Shown: piece after piece, positions 6,916 through 12,292 of the stretch
How positions within the stretch are numbered: the stretch's first letter is position 1
Layout of the letters: every line of letters begins with the position of its first letter
NCBI GenBank assembly: GCA_021202155.1
Contig: JAJQDP010000006.1
Coordinates: 124,001 to 188,000 of the forward strand
Origin: Oscillospiraceae bacterium
GTDB taxonomy: Bacteria; Bacillota; Clostridia; Oscillospirales; Ruminococcaceae
Direction: 5' to 3'
DNA: 64,000 bases
Position numbers and translations under genes: made by a program
Notes under the pieces: generated by a model
Seen by the model: the letters and a program-made list of their open reading frames with translations, nothing else
The model's database searches: none
What the model was told of the DNA's origin: nothing

Positions 6916-8136
6916 TTAAGTTTCCGAGCCTTCAGGCAATCTGTCAACGGTTTCTGATACCGGAGATGATTCCTCCTCTTCCCCACTTGTTCCGCCGTTT
7001 CTCTTCTCTAAATCAGTTTTGATCAGCTTGTAGATCGCTGAGAAGAGCGGAACGCAGATTAACATTCCGGGGATTCCGAAGAGCCCTCCGCCAACACTGA
7101 CTGCCGCCAGCACCCACACAGATGGAAGCCCTATCGACTTGCCAACTATCTTTGGATAGATGAAGTAGTTGTCAACAAACTGGAGAACCAGAATAAAGAG
7201 AACGAATATTACCGCCTGGATGGGATTCACGGTAAGAATCATAAACGCTCCTATTATTGTTCCTATCCATGCGCCAACAATCGGGATAAGGGCAGTAAGA
7301 CCGATAAGTGCACCAATCATCGTCGGATATGGGAGACCTAAAATCAGCATTCCTATTGTACAGAGAGTTCCCAAAAGAAGTGCCTCTGTGCACTGAACGA
7401 CTATGTAGCCGTGGTAGCTCTCGTTGAGAGTGCCCAAAACATAGTAGACTCTTTCGTGCCACTTGGGCTTGAGATATGTCTCGGAAAGCTTTCCGAGCTG
7501 ACCTAAAATCTTGTCTTTTGCTGAAAGGAAGTAGACCGAAAATACTATTCCAACTAAAGCCGTTGACAAAACCGATACTACAGTAGGAGCAACGCTTGTG
7601 ACAGTGTCTACAGTTCCCTGAATATCGCTGATAACGTCGGTGATGCTCGTCGAAAGAAGTGAGATGATGCCGATAATACTGCTTACACTTGAGGCAATTT
7701 CGTTCCAATTTATCCATTCAAGCCATTCTATGATGCTGTCGGGCAGTAGTCCGATAATTGTTTTATTTTCAAGAATTGAAAGAACAAGCGACGGAAGCTG
7801 GTCTATAAATGTCTTTATACATGACACAAACTGCGGAATTACGAGCAGGAGCACAAGAACGATAACGAGAATTATAGTCAGGTATCCCAAAAGCATACAG
7901 ACCGGTCTGCGGCACTTTGCCACTGCCTTTTTCTCACTGTTCGGAAAATAGTGCTTTTCATAAAAGCTCATTGGGATATTCACTATGTATGCAATTATTA
8001 GTCCTACGATAAGTGGATTTAACGCATTCATGGCGATACCAAGAGCGGCAAATATGCTGTCGATGAAGTGAATAATCAAAAATAGTATGACTGCACTCAC
8101 AACAGCTTTGAAGCAGGTTTTCCAGTCGAGTTTCAT
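6916..8136 (-). CDS. AI-2E family (PerM-like) transporter
   Basis: Integral membrane protein of 406 residues with about eight transmembrane segments and the late family block of Gly/Pro-rich helices (LGLPYPTMIGALIGLTALIP, VVGKSIGLPSVWVLAAVSVG, GIPGMLICVPL). Family members move small molecules, ions or peptides; AI-2 transport is only one assignment and is not shown here. The ATG at 8136 is preferred because AAAGGAG lies eight bases upstream. It is divergent from the TetR-type gene, and the palindrome GGACAA-N10-TTGTCC (8158-8179) sits just upstream of its ribosome site, so that regulator probably controls it. The C-terminus is acidic. Confidence 0.88.
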   Translation of the reverse strand: MKLDWKTCFKAVVSAVILFLIIHFIDSIFAALGIAMNALNPLIVGLIIAYIVNIPMSFYEKHYFPNSEKKAVAKCRRPVCMLLGYLTIILVIVLVLLLVIPQFVSCIKTFIDQLPSLVLSILENKTIIGLLPDSIIEWLEWINWNEIASSVSSIIGIISLLSTSITDVISDIQGTVDTVTSVAPTVVSVLSTALVGIVFSVYFLSAKDKILGQLGKLSETYLKPKWHERVYYVLGTLNESYHGYIVVQCTEALLLGTLCTIGMLILGLPYPTMIGALIGLTALIPIVGAWIGTIIGAFMILTVNPIQAVIFVLFILVLQFVDNYFIYPKIVGKSIGLPSVWVLAAVSVGGGLFGIPGMLICVPLFSAIYKLIKTDLEKRNGGTSGEEEESSPVSETVDRLPEGSET

Positions 8137-8157: not shown

Positions 8158-8179
8158 GGACAAATATCATCGATTGTCC
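8158..8179. promoter_or_regulatory. Putative TetR operator, copy 1
   Basis: GGACAA-N10-TTGTCC, 22 bases, between the divergent exporter and tetR-like genes. The same arms, spacing and flanking ATA/TC bases recur at 10770-10791. Confidence 0.55.
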
Positions 8180-8230: not shown

Positions 8231-8274
8231 AGTATTGTTGCTTTCATAGAAGGACATCGAAGGGAGGAATGAAA

Positions 8275-8799
8275 GTGGCTGACTCAAATATAACCAAACG
8301 TGCTCTCGCGTCTGCTTTGAAAGAACTGATGACCGAAGAGCCTTTCTCTAAAATAAGCGTAGCAGGCATATGTGAACGATGCGGCATTAACCGAAAGAGC
8401 TTTTACTATCATTTCAAGGACAAGTATGACCTTGTAAACTGGATTTTTGATTCCGAATTTTTGCTCATTGTCAGGGACAATTCCGCAAAGACAAGTTGGG
8501 AGCTTTTCGACGCCCTTTGTCATTATCTTTACGATAATCGAAAATTCTATAAACCAGCTCTTCAGATAGAGGGTCAGAACTCATTTTCCGATCACTTCAG
8601 GGAAATGTTAAGAGTTTCACTTCGTTCGAGCCTTGGTCTTCTTGGCGAGTATGAGGATTTCCAGCTTAACTTCTATTCCGATGCCCTTGTGTGCACCATA
8701 GAAAGGTGGCTCACATCAAAGAAATGTGACGCTCCGGATGAATTCCTGAAGAAAATCGCTTCCTGTGCCAACGGCTTCAGAAAAGTTTCTTCCTCCTGA
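8275..8799 (+). CDS. TetR/AcrR-type transcriptional regulator
   Basis: A 174-residue one-component regulator. The N-terminal HTH is typical of the DhaS-like TetR branch: ALKELMTEEPFSKISVAGIC then RCGINRKSFYYHFKDKYDL. The C-terminal two-thirds is a helical ligand or dimer domain of unknown specificity. The GTG at 8275 is chosen over the ATG at 8269 because GGGAGG ends only one base before that ATG but seven bases before the GTG. It is divergent from the AI-2E-type exporter with a palindrome between them, and is followed by a terminator that reaches into the convergent patatin gene. Likely a repressor of itself and neighbours (inference). Confidence 0.85.
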   Translation: MADSNITKRALASALKELMTEEPFSKISVAGICERCGINRKSFYYHFKDKYDLVNWIFDSEFLLIVRDNSAKTSWELFDALCHYLYDNRKFYKPALQIEGQNSFSDHFREMLRVSLRSSLGLLGEYEDFQLNFYSDALVCTIERWLTSKKCDAPDEFLKKIASCANGFRKVSSS

Positions 8800-8812
8800 A
8801 AACTGAATACTT

Positions 8813-8851
8813 CCCGCCGTTCAGGAAAGTCCTAAGAACGACGGGATTTTT
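8813..8851 (+). terminator. Terminator of the tetR-like gene, embedded in the patatin 3' end
   Basis: CCCGCCGTTC / GAACGACGGG with one mismatch, then ATTTTTT. Its right arm and T-run lie within the convergent patatin reading frame. Confidence 0.75.
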
Positions 8852-9666
8852 TCTGCATCTCTGAGTCCCTTTTGATAAAGCTCATCAAGAGGCTCTTTTT
8901 CTTTTGTGAGAGTGTCCACTCCGCACGTATCGTCAGGAGCAAGAATGAGAACCTTGCCCTCGGCTTCAAGCTCTTTTGCGGTTTCGAGCTCTGCATTATA
9001 GTGGTCTGCCCTGCCGCCGATCCTCTCGGCTGAGACGGGATACTGCTTTCTGATTCTCTTTGCAATTGCAATGTCACGCTTTGGAAGCCTCAGAACATCG
9101 CGTGGCTTGCTAAGGATGAGTACAACCTTTTCACAACCCATAGATATAGCCTTTTCAACCGGCACCGGGTCGCCAAGAGCTCCATCAAAGTACGGTTCAC
9201 CATCAACATAGTACGGCTTGTTGACGTACGGAATCGAGCAGGAAGCTTTCACTATGTCAAGATTGTCCTGGCTCACATAGTCCTTTGTGAAGTACTTTGT
9301 ATCACCTGTTATCGCGTTTTCTGCAACAACAAGCAGATCTGTAGGATTTTTGAGCATTGCTTCAAAGTCAAAAGGGCATTCACCGCCAGCGTTGCTGAGC
9401 TTGCCATAGATATAATCCATGTCTATGTACGAGCCATTCTTCAGAAGATTAGAAAGGCTCATTGCTTCTTTCCTGTGGTTGTAATCGGTGTAGAACTTGT
9501 AGTTTCTACCCTTTTGTCCTGCAAGAAAAGTGCAGATATTTGCAGCACCGGCTGAAACTCCGATTCCGAGGTCAAAGCTTATGTTATGCTCCATGCAGTA
9601 GTCCATAACTCCGCAGGCATAGATTCCTCTCATACCGCCGCCGACATCAACAATTCCCGTTTTCAT
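8821..9666 (-). CDS. Patatin-like phospholipase family protein
   Basis: A 281-residue cytosolic or membrane-associated serine acyl hydrolase. The oxyanion loop GGGMRG is at 9-14, the nucleophile elbow GVSAG carries Ser38, and the catalytic-dyad Asp is in YFDGALGDP (Asp161), so all key residues are present. Patatin-fold enzymes cleave acyl chains from phospho- or glycolipids. The ATG at 9666, with AGAGGGAA upstream, is preferred to the TTG at 9684. It follows the cluster-less radical-SAM-like gene by 26 bases on the same strand and shares its unusual GAAAGAGGG ribosome site, so the two are probably one operon. Confidence 0.9.
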   Translation of the reverse strand: MKTGIVDVGGGMRGIYACGVMDYCMEHNISFDLGIGVSAGAANICTFLAGQKGRNYKFYTDYNHRKEAMSLSNLLKNGSYIDMDYIYGKLSNAGGECPFDFEAMLKNPTDLLVVAENAITGDTKYFTKDYVSQDNLDIVKASCSIPYVNKPYYVDGEPYFDGALGDPVPVEKAISMGCEKVVLILSKPRDVLRLPKRDIAIAKRIRKQYPVSAERIGGRADHYNAELETAKELEAEGKVLILAPDDTCGVDTLTKEKEPLDELYQKGLRDAEKIPSFLGLS

Positions 9667-9692
9667 ATGATTTCCCTCTTTCAACTATCATA

Positions 9693-10703
9693 TCATTTGG
9701 TAGCCTTAGGATAGCACTTTTCAAAAATCTCTGCAAGAGTCCAATTCCTGAAATTGCACTCAGCTCCTGAATTTACAGCGGAAATAAGTCTCCCCGACTC
9801 GTCGAAAACAGCAATGCAGGCGTCATCGGAGATGATTTCATCAATCATCCTTGCAGTTCCCGAAAATTCCATTGGAACACTGGCGGCAGTTCTTGTATCC
9901 CTGAGCTTTGATGATTCAGTGTATACATCATTATAACCAGAATAATCGTCGTCGGATTTAACGAAGAATGTCAGTATGGGATGAAGTTCGTCAGCAACAT
10001 TCAGAAGTTCATTACATGCAGGTTTTTCATCGGAATTGTATTCATACCAGATGGAATACAAAGCCTTATCACTTCTCAGATGTTCGCATAATTGTTGAGC
10101 ATTTTCGGAATACTTGACACACAGCATCATGTTTTTGATCTCACCAGCTTGTTCCAATATCCCATTTTGTATGTTTTCAGCATCTGAGAAAAGGATAAAT
10201 GCACATTCTGATTCATTGTCAAAAAGTTCTGTAATTGTCACAGGAATCTCAGAGCAGAAGAAGACATACGTATAAATTCCAAGTTTCTTTCCCTGCCTGA
10301 TTGCTTCGGAATATGCTTCTTCTGAGAATGACGTGTTGTCAATATAGAAAATTATAGACCACGGAATGTTATAGCCACGTTCTTTTTCAAGATTTCTGAT
10401 AGTTCTTGCACCAGCGGTGAAGCTGTTGTAGCCGGTATTCATCCCGAATTTCAGGATATTTGCTGTTCCCACATTTTTGATTGCATCGTGAATGAGTGCA
10501 TAATAAGGGCTGTTTTCATCTTCAAGCATTGAGTGAGCTATGCTTAAAAAATGCTTTTGGAATCTTCCCGCAGAAAGAGCAAGTGCCAGGTCTACAAGAT
10601 TTCTTGACTCTCTGTCTGGATTATCCCGCATGTCCTCAAGCTTTTTTCCGACATATGCTTCGATAATAGATTTTGCGTTGTTTTGAGTTACATTCTGTTC
10701 CAT
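9693..10703 (-). CDS. Radical-SAM-like paralogue lacking the Fe-S cluster motif
   Basis: A 336-residue protein that I match only to its divergent neighbour. Both have a helical N-domain, then YNIPWSII (111-118) versus CNIPWAIL (102-109), then QGKKLGIYTYVFF versus QGKDLGCYMYIYT, and a matching C-terminal LISAVNSGAECNF / DVEPCVFIHYSNV zone. Between PW and QGK it has about 22 residues against 40 in the neighbour; the missing part is the CxxxCxxC loop, and the GGEP motif is SEIP. It therefore cannot bind the usual cluster and may be a partner or regulatory subunit. The ATG at 10703 has AGAGGG upstream. The operator at 10770 abuts its promoter. Confidence 0.6.
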   Translation of the reverse strand: MEQNVTQNNAKSIIEAYVGKKLEDMRDNPDRESRNLVDLALALSAGRFQKHFLSIAHSMLEDENSPYYALIHDAIKNVGTANILKFGMNTGYNSFTAGARTIRNLEKERGYNIPWSIIFYIDNTSFSEEAYSEAIRQGKKLGIYTYVFFCSEIPVTITELFDNESECAFILFSDAENIQNGILEQAGEIKNMMLCVKYSENAQQLCEHLRSDKALYSIWYEYNSDEKPACNELLNVADELHPILTFFVKSDDDYSGYNDVYTESSKLRDTRTAASVPMEFSGTARMIDEIISDDACIAVFDESGRLISAVNSGAECNFRNWTLAEIFEKCYPKATK

Positions 10704-10739
10704 AAGAAACCCTCTTTCAAACAAAATTCAGACGTACTA

Positions 10740-10768
10740 ATTATAAACTGCCATCGATTTTTTAAACA
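10740..10768 (-). promoter_or_regulatory. Promoter of the cluster-less radical-SAM-like/patatin operon
   Basis: Minus-strand TATAAT (10740-10745) with a weak TGTTTA -35 (10763-10768) at 17 bases. Operator copy 2 begins two bases further upstream. Confidence 0.55.
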
Positions 10769-10769
10769 C

Positions 10770-10791
10770 GGACAAATAATCTGTTTTGTCC
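10770..10791. promoter_or_regulatory. Putative TetR operator, copy 2
   Basis: GGACAA-N10-TTGTCC with the same 22-base size as the site at 8158-8179, in the divergent region between the two radical-SAM-type genes. Confidence 0.55.
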
Positions 10792-10933
10792 AGAAAGGTA
10801 ACACTTTTTTCTGCGGTCTTATTTTTCCACACTTTATGATTCCGTGTCCAATGACATTTTTCTCTGCCTGATTTAAAATGAAGAAAAGAAAGCGGAGAAA
10901 TATACTCTGCAGTAACGAAAGGACAGATTTAGT

Positions 10934-12292
10934 ATGAAGAAAAATCTTCTTAAGAATTTCGGAATCAAGCAGGCATTCAACTATCTCGAAAAAAATCCTG
11001 AAGAAAACATTCCGAAGCTAATCAATATGCTCGAAAAGAGCTATAGCGGGGACACGTTTCAAAAGCAGATAGCAATTGTAAAGAAATCGGTTGAAGCCAA
11101 GGACAACTGGTATCAGCTTATGATGAAAATATATGAGCTTGACCCGGGCGTCAGAAAAGCAGTTTTCGAGAATCTTCTTCTCAACGACAGTATAAACGGT
11201 TATGTTTACCAGCAGGAAATGTCTAAGAAGTATAACTGTAACATCCCATGGGCGATTCTTTTAGACCCTACGTCTGCCTGCAATCTTCACTGCACAGGCT
11301 GTTGGGCGGCAGAGTATGGCAATAAGCTTAACTTAAGCTTTGAGACCATAGATTCTATCGTCAAGCAGGGCAAAGACCTTGGTTGCTACATGTATATCTA
11401 CACCGGCGGCGAGCCGATGGTCAGAAAGAACGACCTTATAAAAATCTGTGAGATGAACCCTGACTGCGAGTTTTTGGCGTTCACAAACGGAACGCTTATC
11501 GATGAGGACTTCTGCAAGGAAATGCTCAGAGTCAAGAACTTTGTTCCAGCTATAAGCCTTGAAGGCTTTGAGGACGCAAACGACTCAAGAAGAGGCGAAG
11601 GCGTATATGACAAGGTTCACAACGCTATGAGACTTCTCAATGAAAATAAGCTTCCGTTCGGAATTTCTGCCTGCTATACATCGCACAACTGCGACGACAT
11701 TACAAGCGAAGAGTTCTTTGACATGATTATCGACGCGGGAGCACTCTTTATCTGGTTCTTCCATTACATGCCGGTAGGAAACGATGCAGTAGCCGAACTT
11801 CTTCCCTCTCCTGAACAGCGCGAGAAGGTTCTAAGAAGAATCAGAGAGTATCGTAGCTCCAAGGCAATATTCAGCATCGACTTCCAGAACGATGCACAGT
11901 ACATCGGCGGATGCATTGCAGGTGGCAGGAAGTATCTCCACATCAACGCCAAAGGCGATGTTGAACCCTGCGTATTCATCCACTATTCAAATGTCAATAT
12001 CCACGACTGCACTCTTCTTGATGCACTGAGGAGTCCCCTCTTCCAGGCATATCACGACAATCAGCCGTTTAATGATAACATGTTGAGACCTTGCCCGATG
12101 CTCGAAAATCCTGAAAAGCTGAGAGCCATGGTCAAGGAAACAAAGGCAAGGAACACCGACTATCAGAGTATTGAGAGTGCGGATCACCTTTGCGACAAGT
12201 GTGAAAGCTACGCCGAAAACTGGAAGCCCACTGCTGATAAGCTTTGGGATGAAATCCAGCAGAAAAAGGCGGAGGCAAACTCCAAGAATTGA
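10934..12292 (+). CDS. Radical SAM enzyme with SPASM-like C-terminus
   Basis: A 452-residue enzyme expected to cleave SAM to a 5'-deoxyadenosyl radical. A helical N-domain (1-100) precedes the core. Cluster motif CNLHCTGC has Cys116, Cys120 and Cys123, and the SAM-binding GGEP is at about 158-161. The C-terminal part carries further Cys groups (YIGGC, EPCVF, RPCPM, LCDKC) like a SPASM or twitch auxiliary-cluster domain. Substrate is unknown: no precursor peptide is visible nearby, which argues against RiPP maturation. The divergent paralogue, patatin and TetR regulator make lipid or membrane modification a guess. AAAGGA precedes the ATG and a terminator follows. Confidence 0.85.
   Translation: MKKNLLKNFGIKQAFNYLEKNPEENIPKLINMLEKSYSGDTFQKQIAIVKKSVEAKDNWYQLMMKIYELDPGVRKAVFENLLLNDSINGYVYQQEMSKKYNCNIPWAILLDPTSACNLHCTGCWAAEYGNKLNLSFETIDSIVKQGKDLGCYMYIYTGGEPMVRKNDLIKICEMNPDCEFLAFTNGTLIDEDFCKEMLRVKNFVPAISLEGFEDANDSRRGEGVYDKVHNAMRLLNENKLPFGISACYTSHNCDDITSEEFFDMIIDAGALFIWFFHYMPVGNDAVAELLPSPEQREKVLRRIREYRSSKAIFSIDFQNDAQYIGGCIAGGRKYLHINAKGDVEPCVFIHYSNVNIHDCTLLDALRSPLFQAYHDNQPFNDNMLRPCPMLENPEKLRAMVKETKARNTDYQSIESADHLCDKCESYAENWKPTADKLWDEIQQKKAEANSKN

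Follow-up and report, generated by a model that had tools for sequence, protein, structure and literature searches.

DhaQ, a non-catalytic paralogue of DhaK acting as co-activator of the TetR-family regulator DhaS, is a described case of a pseudo-enzyme that works with a transcription factor. Here we report a comparable arrangement in a 64,000-nucleotide stretch of an Oscillospiraceae genome (GCA_021202155.1, contig JAJQDP010000006.1, positions 124,001–188,000; hereafter the window), in which a minus-strand, clusterless paralogue of radical S-adenosylmethionine (SAM) enzymes of the SPASM type (PS) is encoded head to head with a divergent, intact radical SAM/SPASM enzyme (RS). PS is retained with one clade of DhaS-like TetR regulators and with a 22-bp palindrome more faithfully than with RS, and it is this retention with the regulator and the palindrome above the enzyme, not the existence of a clusterless paralogue, that is surprising. 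PS differs from DhaQ in its parent enzyme, being a paralogue of a radical SAM protein and not, like DhaQ, of DhaK.

A table in PMC8952416 names DhaQ as coactivator of the DhaKLM operon and DhaS as activator in the dha operon of Lactococcus lactis. As in that system, a DhaS-family TetR goes here with a non-catalytic paralogue of the neighbouring enzyme. In Streptococcus pneumoniae, the passages of PMC12647141 on FasR (SPV_0647) describe a TetR-like fold resembling 4MK6 and 2IU5 and the control of fatty acid saturation by this regulator, which is encoded next to fakB3; the TetR of the window shares the 4MK6/2IU5-type fold, and DegV genes lie near 12 of 42 PS/RS pairs, as fakB3 lies beside FasR, although those passages mention no pseudo-radical-SAM protein. 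The haloarchaeal pseudo-SAM/SPASM family TIGR04347 is likewise a named family of pseudo-radical-SAM proteins and is a weak hit of RS; unlike RS, the 25 PS members compared with NCBIfam have no match there at E ≤ 0.01, TIGR04347 included. From the SPASM radical SAM enzymes SkfB, SuiB and anSME, PS differs in having no iron-sulfur ligands, and the locus differs in that the window encodes no likely precursor peptide, either in the PS/RS gap or immediately beyond RS.

Results

The two genes lie where the first-pass annotation had placed them (Table 1), with 230 bp between their starts; an upstream TTG start would lengthen PS to 343 residues. RS has Pfam matches to Radical_SAM (2e-17) and SPASM (1.1e-4), both above the cut-off, and carries the CxxxCxxC motif, GGEP and the SPASM-type cysteines expected of such an enzyme: C116, C120, C123, GGEP, C327, C346 and C387 are present in 43 of 43 RS sequences and C420 in 42. 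PS itself matched no Pfam or NCBIfam model at E ≤ 1, and its relatives matched no Pfam model (13 members, E ≤ 0.1). Homology to RS is apparent in BLASTP, with 42 of 193 columns identical (22%, E 2e-8), and in the profile-profile comparison of 13 PS with 25 RS sequences that the first-pass annotation had proposed (probability 99.94, E 3.9e-37), where PS residues 1–331 aligned to RS residues 2–373. The N-terminal helical domain, NIPW, QGKxLGxY and the C-terminal zone align as previously described, the last matching the zone of the SPASM fold only. The AlphaFold2 model of PS is a confident radical-SAM-like barrel (pLDDT 88, pTM 0.89) and its top VIA hits are radical SAM proteins, so the predicted fold is not unrelated to the radical SAM barrel. 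Chance resemblance is ruled out by the BLASTP match, the profile-profile match and the predicted fold. By sequence comparison, therefore, PS is a paralogue of RS residues 2–373 and can be counted among radical SAM proteins by a predicted partial (beta/alpha)6 barrel and common descent.

Table 1. Features of the PS/RS locus, with positions counted from the first letter of the window
Feature	Position	Strand	Remarks
AI-2E family membrane protein	6916..8136	-	start at internal ATG; AI-2E_transport 5.5e-45
Second palindrome copy, GGACAAATATCATCGATTGTCC	8158..8179		TetR/AI-2E divergent intergenic region
DhaS-like TetR regulator	8269..8799	+	176 aa; TetR_C_8 6e-15, TetR_N 9.8e-10
Patatin-like phospholipase	8821..9669	-	282 aa; Patatin 4.8e-20, DUF6363 2.5e-11
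PS, clusterless radical SAM/SPASM paralogue	9693..10703	-	336 aa from ATG
Palindrome, GGACAAATAATCTGTTTTGTCC (GGACA-N12-TGTCC)	10770..10791		PS/RS divergent intergenic region; proposed TetR operator
RS, intact radical SAM/SPASM enzyme	10934..12292	+	452 aa; CxxxCxxC at residues 116–123

The loss in PS extends beyond the cluster loop. When 25 PS and 43 RS sequences are aligned jointly (the basis of all residue gains and losses below), the three cluster cysteines fall in gaps in all 25 PS, and the stretch from NIPW to QGK is 17 residues shorter (PS W115–Y131 against RS W106–I139), close to the 18 or so estimated earlier, with CxxxCxxC inside the gap. GGEP is scrambled, as had also been noticed, and neither RS S208, E210 and P280–G282 nor the SPASM cysteines 327, 346, 387 and 420 are conserved in PS, which also lacks roughly the last 80 residues of RS. 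The earlier description of PS as having lost "exactly" its cluster-binding loop thus understates the loss, since PS has also lost the C-terminal extension, the cysteines of the SPASM zone and residues of the SAM site. Nor has the cluster motif moved elsewhere in the family: the CX3CX2C string occurs in one of 88 distinct PS domain sequences taken from the loci (L070), at residue 234 of a 288-residue match and far from the barrel entry. As judged from the aligned residues, PS is therefore without any known ligand residue for the catalytic [4Fe-4S] cluster or for SAM, neither CxxxCxxC after strand 1 nor GGEP with the other SAM-binding residues being present. At least 95% of RS rows agree in 180 columns, and in 17 of these at least 80% of PS have the same residue; residues kept in PS include P29, N89, N93, G98, P114, W115, G138, G142, Y144, F169, Y222, R268 and G304. 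The signature found in PS alone lies mainly in the N-terminal domain (R31, R34, Q49, F52, S65, Y67, G87, G91, Y92, R103).

PS is under purifying selection. Its own genome holds one copy, the second, weak match being RS, and 11 of the 31 genus genomes, its own included, have an orthologue, with 78–81% identity in the other ten. The median dN/dS is 0.075 for PS (11 sequences, 55 pairs) and 0.024 for RS (13 sequences, 73 usable of 78 pairs), values that are rough because dS is near saturation; the RS set holds some genomes twice, L113–L116 repeating the contigs of other rows and L010 and L014 both coming from G008. Across the order, 26 of 394 genomes gave matches at E ≤ 1e-25, four of them through RS-type frames of 473–505 residues, and the remaining matches include six other families; named carriers of PS include Lachnospiraceae and one Christensenellaceae record, and a scan of genome contigs with PS alone as query gave no match. 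The dN/dS values and the spread of PS rule out a decaying pseudogene and, together with the predicted barrel, bear out the earlier view of a maintained pseudo-enzyme.

Several irregular frames were seen. In the genus relatives L003 (2771–3999) and L012 (2731–4002), the RS frame is split into two overlapping frames beside an open PS, through assembly errors or real frameshifts. Beside an intact RS, PS is shortened to 194 residues in L138 (7111–7695), while in L124 (6184–7761) it continues into a longer frame; either may be decay or sequence error. An RS close to those of Clostridia occurs in a record labelled Fretibacterium (Synergistota; L145), by horizontal transfer or binning error. Many genomes of the family, most of them lacking RS, carry a shorter relative of RS (frames of about 350–410 residues, 30–36% identity), among them G045, G049, G073, G084, G119 and G216.

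The regulator beside PS belongs to one clade that follows PS. The nearest PDB entries of the window TetR are 4mk6 (E 3.4e-20) and then DhaS, 2iu5 (E 2.1e-14), a clear kinship that is also seen through TetR_C_8. In a tree of 70 nearby TetRs, one clade (support 100/99) comprises 41 rows, of which 39 are PS-linked, and the PS-linked TetRs outside it (L078, L079, L080) all accompany a distant PS. PS linkage changes 4 times on this tree (at least 3 forced; shuffled mean 22.0) and 13 times on an RS tree of 103 rows made by a quick method (at least 8 forced; shuffled mean 32.6), with 0 of 500 shuffles as low in either case; the two trees hold different rows and the label is given by locus. For the named loci with RS alone, 50 genomes were searched for PS (the RS-only loci number 60): 39 gave no hit at E ≤ 1e-35, and the other 11 carry PS elsewhere.

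The same association holds among 297 genomes of the family. A clade model built from 14 clade TetRs, themselves among the 41 clade rows scored, gave 206–312 bits for the clade and 29–193 bits for the other 29 rows, and we drew the clade line at 200 bits after seeing this separation. At that line 25 genomes hold a clade TetR: 22 of the 31 with PS against 3 of the 266 without it (Fisher p 4e-23; Fisher and permutation tests here ignore kinship). With RS orthologues defined as at least 50% identical, PS and RS occur together in 18 genomes, PS alone in 13 and RS alone in 16. Ten of the 13 genomes with PS alone have the clade TetR but none of the 16 with RS alone, so that it follows PS rather than RS; the Jaccard index with PS is 0.65 for the TetR clade and 0.38 for RS. 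Completeness is 90% or more in 11 of the 13 PS-only genomes, and a repeated search with the RS profile found nothing, or PS itself with weak generic matches, in 12 of the 13 and a distant 366-residue protein in G294. In 11 PS genomes no TetR lies near PS; six of these have a clade TetR on another contig (254–289 bits), and of the rest G093 has one at 186 bits, three have lower-scoring ones and G096 has none. Over 35 loci, PS distances co-varied with TetR distances given RS (partial r 0.63, 0 of 2000 permutations), and RS with TetR given PS less so (0.26, 50 of 2000). With seven rows dropped and the trees of the 35-locus run re-used, the 28 remaining loci gave 0.60 for PS-TetR (0 of 2000), 0.44 for PS-RS (1) and 0.24 for RS-TetR (66).

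The palindrome GGACA-N12-TGTCC is common to the PS/RS intergenic region and the region upstream of TetR in genus alignments. The 2.25 Mb genome has three exact sites, two of them those of the window, and none of the reversed control pattern; the third lies on another contig (G000:C23:8140-8161, L195). With one mismatch allowed, the window has a third site, three such hits being not unusual (18 of 100 shuffles). The loci together (1.86 Mb) hold 64 exact sites against 20 for the next best of 30 permutations of the half-site letters, and other gaps (8–11, 13–16) gave 1–6 sites. Counting upstream sites with up to one mismatch, with the range for control gaps in brackets, we found the palindrome at loci with both genes upstream of PS in 30 of 42 (0–3), of RS in 32 of 42 (0–4; largely the same intergenic regions as for PS) and of TetR in 23 of 37 (0–2). 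At PS-only loci it lies upstream of PS in 7 of 18 (0–1) and of TetR in 4 of 7 (0–1), and at RS-only loci upstream of TetR in 1 of 32 (0–1). The palindrome thus mainly, though not wholly, marks the PS-TetR module and is most likely the operator of the DhaS-like TetR. Its layout agrees with that of the DhaS operator; the letters of the latter reportedly go back to Christen et al. (2006), a paper listed among the references of PMC10298230.

The gene neighbourhood was compared in 121 loci, comprising the window, 40 regions and 80 named loci found with RS (best 80 matches). These are not independent, several coming from one genus and the pairs L089/L151 and L086/L178 each having identical RS on contigs of equal length. 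PS adjoins RS in 42 loci (37 divergent, 4 tandem, 1 convergent), PS occurs without RS in 18 and RS without PS in 60, and the two lie apart in one (L157). Of the 43 loci that hold both genes, 35 encode a DhaS-like TetR at most 3 kb from PS, as do 7 of the 18 PS-only loci; at each of these 42 the TetR gene is convergent with PS (L157 included). Nine PS genomes each have at least 2 to 5 TetR_C_8 genes among the matches listed, with 5 or more in five of the nine (5 to 15 first-look candidates); with so few, the adjacency of PS and TetR is not expected by chance.

Recurrent neighbours of PS are patatin, P-type cation ATPase, DegV, AI-2E family and VTT-domain genes (Pfam on one member each). The patatin gene, directly downstream of PS on the same strand, lies between PS and the TetR gene in this genus and near 11 of the 42 pairs, and the AI-2E gene, divergent from TetR across the second palindrome, near 6. 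The DegV proteins are presumably fatty-acid-binding, like FakB3. A P-type cation-transporting ATPase gene is near PS/TetR at 8 of the 42 pairs and 6 of the 18 PS-only loci; its 5' end is near a palindrome in L093, L095, L097, L104, L107, L110 and L127, and it may belong to the same regulon. RS without PS has other neighbours, namely MCRA (oleate hydratase), S-adenosylmethionine synthetase and DUF308 (again Pfam on one member each). The row TetR, MCRA, RS, SAM synthetase, DUF308 was seen in L086, L088, L091, L175, L178, L183 and L189, with TetR missing from L175 and the synthetase from L189 in the stretch seen. This row suggests that RS acts on fatty acids or membrane lipids. In structure comparison RS is nearer to peptide-type SPASM enzymes; a search of the window for a small precursor frame of a ribosomally synthesized and post-translationally modified peptide, between PS and RS or just 3' of RS, gave no likely candidate (one chance frame of 31 residues). 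The lipid-type neighbours also provide a lead, and a lead only, to RS as a membrane-spanning lipid synthase (Mss); GDGT-MAS is not among the 50 matches listed for PS, which carries no evidential weight.

Discussion

We put at about even the chance that PS is a ligand-sensing co-regulator of the DhaS-like TetR, after the manner of DhaQ with DhaS. PS, which keeps the helical N-terminal domain and barrel of RS, would belong to the regulon of the TetR that is usually encoded next to it; its inherited barrel would still bind a substrate or product of the pathway and pass this signal to the TetR by direct contact, and PS, patatin and RS would be switched together. The ligand would probably be a fatty-acyl or membrane-lipid compound, as suggested by the lipid-type neighbours and by the control of fatty acid saturation by a TetR of similar fold. 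PS fits the description of a DhaQ-like protein in that it accompanies a DhaS-type regulator and is the non-catalytic paralogue of an enzyme, RS, which is presumably the regulated enzyme of the pathway.

A number of observations weigh against this reading. The window TetR scores 126.3 bits with the DhaS model TIGR02366 and does not reach the equivalog cut-off of 129, and PS and TetR are convergent and not in one operon; in both respects the locus departs from DhaQ/DhaS, and the contact between PS and TetR is proposed by analogy. The regulator may work without PS, since a clade TetR occurs without it in G018, which is of the window's own genus, G089 and G307, and stands beside RS in L117 and L176, whose genomes have no PS at E ≤ 1e-35. 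Conversely, 9 of the 31 PS genomes have no clade-scoring TetR: G093, G193 and G304 have a more distant relative at 186–192 bits, G081, G300, G091 and G096 a lower score or none, and the other two are G166 and G179. Among PS-only loci, 11 of 18 have no DhaS-like TetR within 3 kb, and in only two of these (L073, L081) does PS lie at or near a contig edge on the TetR side. The palindrome lies upstream of RS in 15 of 61 RS-only loci (1–8 for control gaps), so the site is not wholly specific, and the promoter scans did not tell activation from repression. Moreover, co-retention of a regulator and its target would look the same without contact between PS and TetR.

The main rival is a non-catalytic subunit of RS, in which PS would form a heterodimer that stabilises RS, presents its substrate or restrains it; we consider this unlikely, if less so than the other alternatives. 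It ranks first among the rivals because RS is present in 18 of 31 PS genomes (Fisher p 7e-12) and PS co-varies with it given TetR (partial r 0.46 over 35 loci, 0 of 2000 permutations, with the 28-locus value given above) and often adjoins it, mostly head to head; RS moreover carries the same N-terminal helical domain. The first-pass annotation saw PS as a possible scaffold, substrate presenter or antagonist of RS and called for a survey of the pair; the survey shows co-occurrence far beyond chance, yet the TetR clade tracks PS better, which weakens the idea of a partner of the enzyme. A subunit would also have to do without its enzyme in the 13 of 31 PS genomes that have no RS orthologue, most of them nearly complete, and the enzyme without its subunit in most genomes of the RS-only named loci, and the linkage of PS changes repeatedly along the RS tree.

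Somewhat less probable still is that PS is a mere target of the TetR, a ligand-binding or buffering protein that serves in the response to membrane or lipid stress without contacting TetR or RS. The palindromes upstream of PS, at pair loci and PS-only loci alike, and the patatin, DegV, ATPase and VTT-domain neighbours would all be expected of such a protein. The absence of the TetR clade from every RS-only genome, by which the regulator follows PS rather than RS, argues against it, as does the co-variation of PS with TetR beyond that with RS, which a plain target need not show. That PS is an active enzyme of another kind, its barrel re-purposed for SAM-independent chemistry, we regard as improbable: conserved polar residues do lie in or at the edge of the barrel (Y131, R210, Y216, Y222, R268), but most residues conserved in PS and not in RS are in the N-terminal helical domain.

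Among the best matches listed in the open-licence literature, none describes a radical-SAM pseudo-enzyme with a TetR. It is possible, though we hold this more tentatively than the proposal for PS itself, that a radical SAM/SPASM fold stripped of its cofactors serves across gut Clostridia as the ligand-sensing co-regulator of a DhaS-like TetR that controls RS and lipid genes through the operator, and that pseudo-enzyme partners may in general give TetR_C_8 regulators their ligand specificity. If true, PS would illustrate a route from an anaerobic enzyme to a sensor protein, and the operator, regulator and ligand would provide a testable handle on a radical SAM enzyme that is widespread in gut Clostridia. 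The locus also raises the general question of whether DhaS-like TetR regulators draw their signal from pseudo-enzyme partners.

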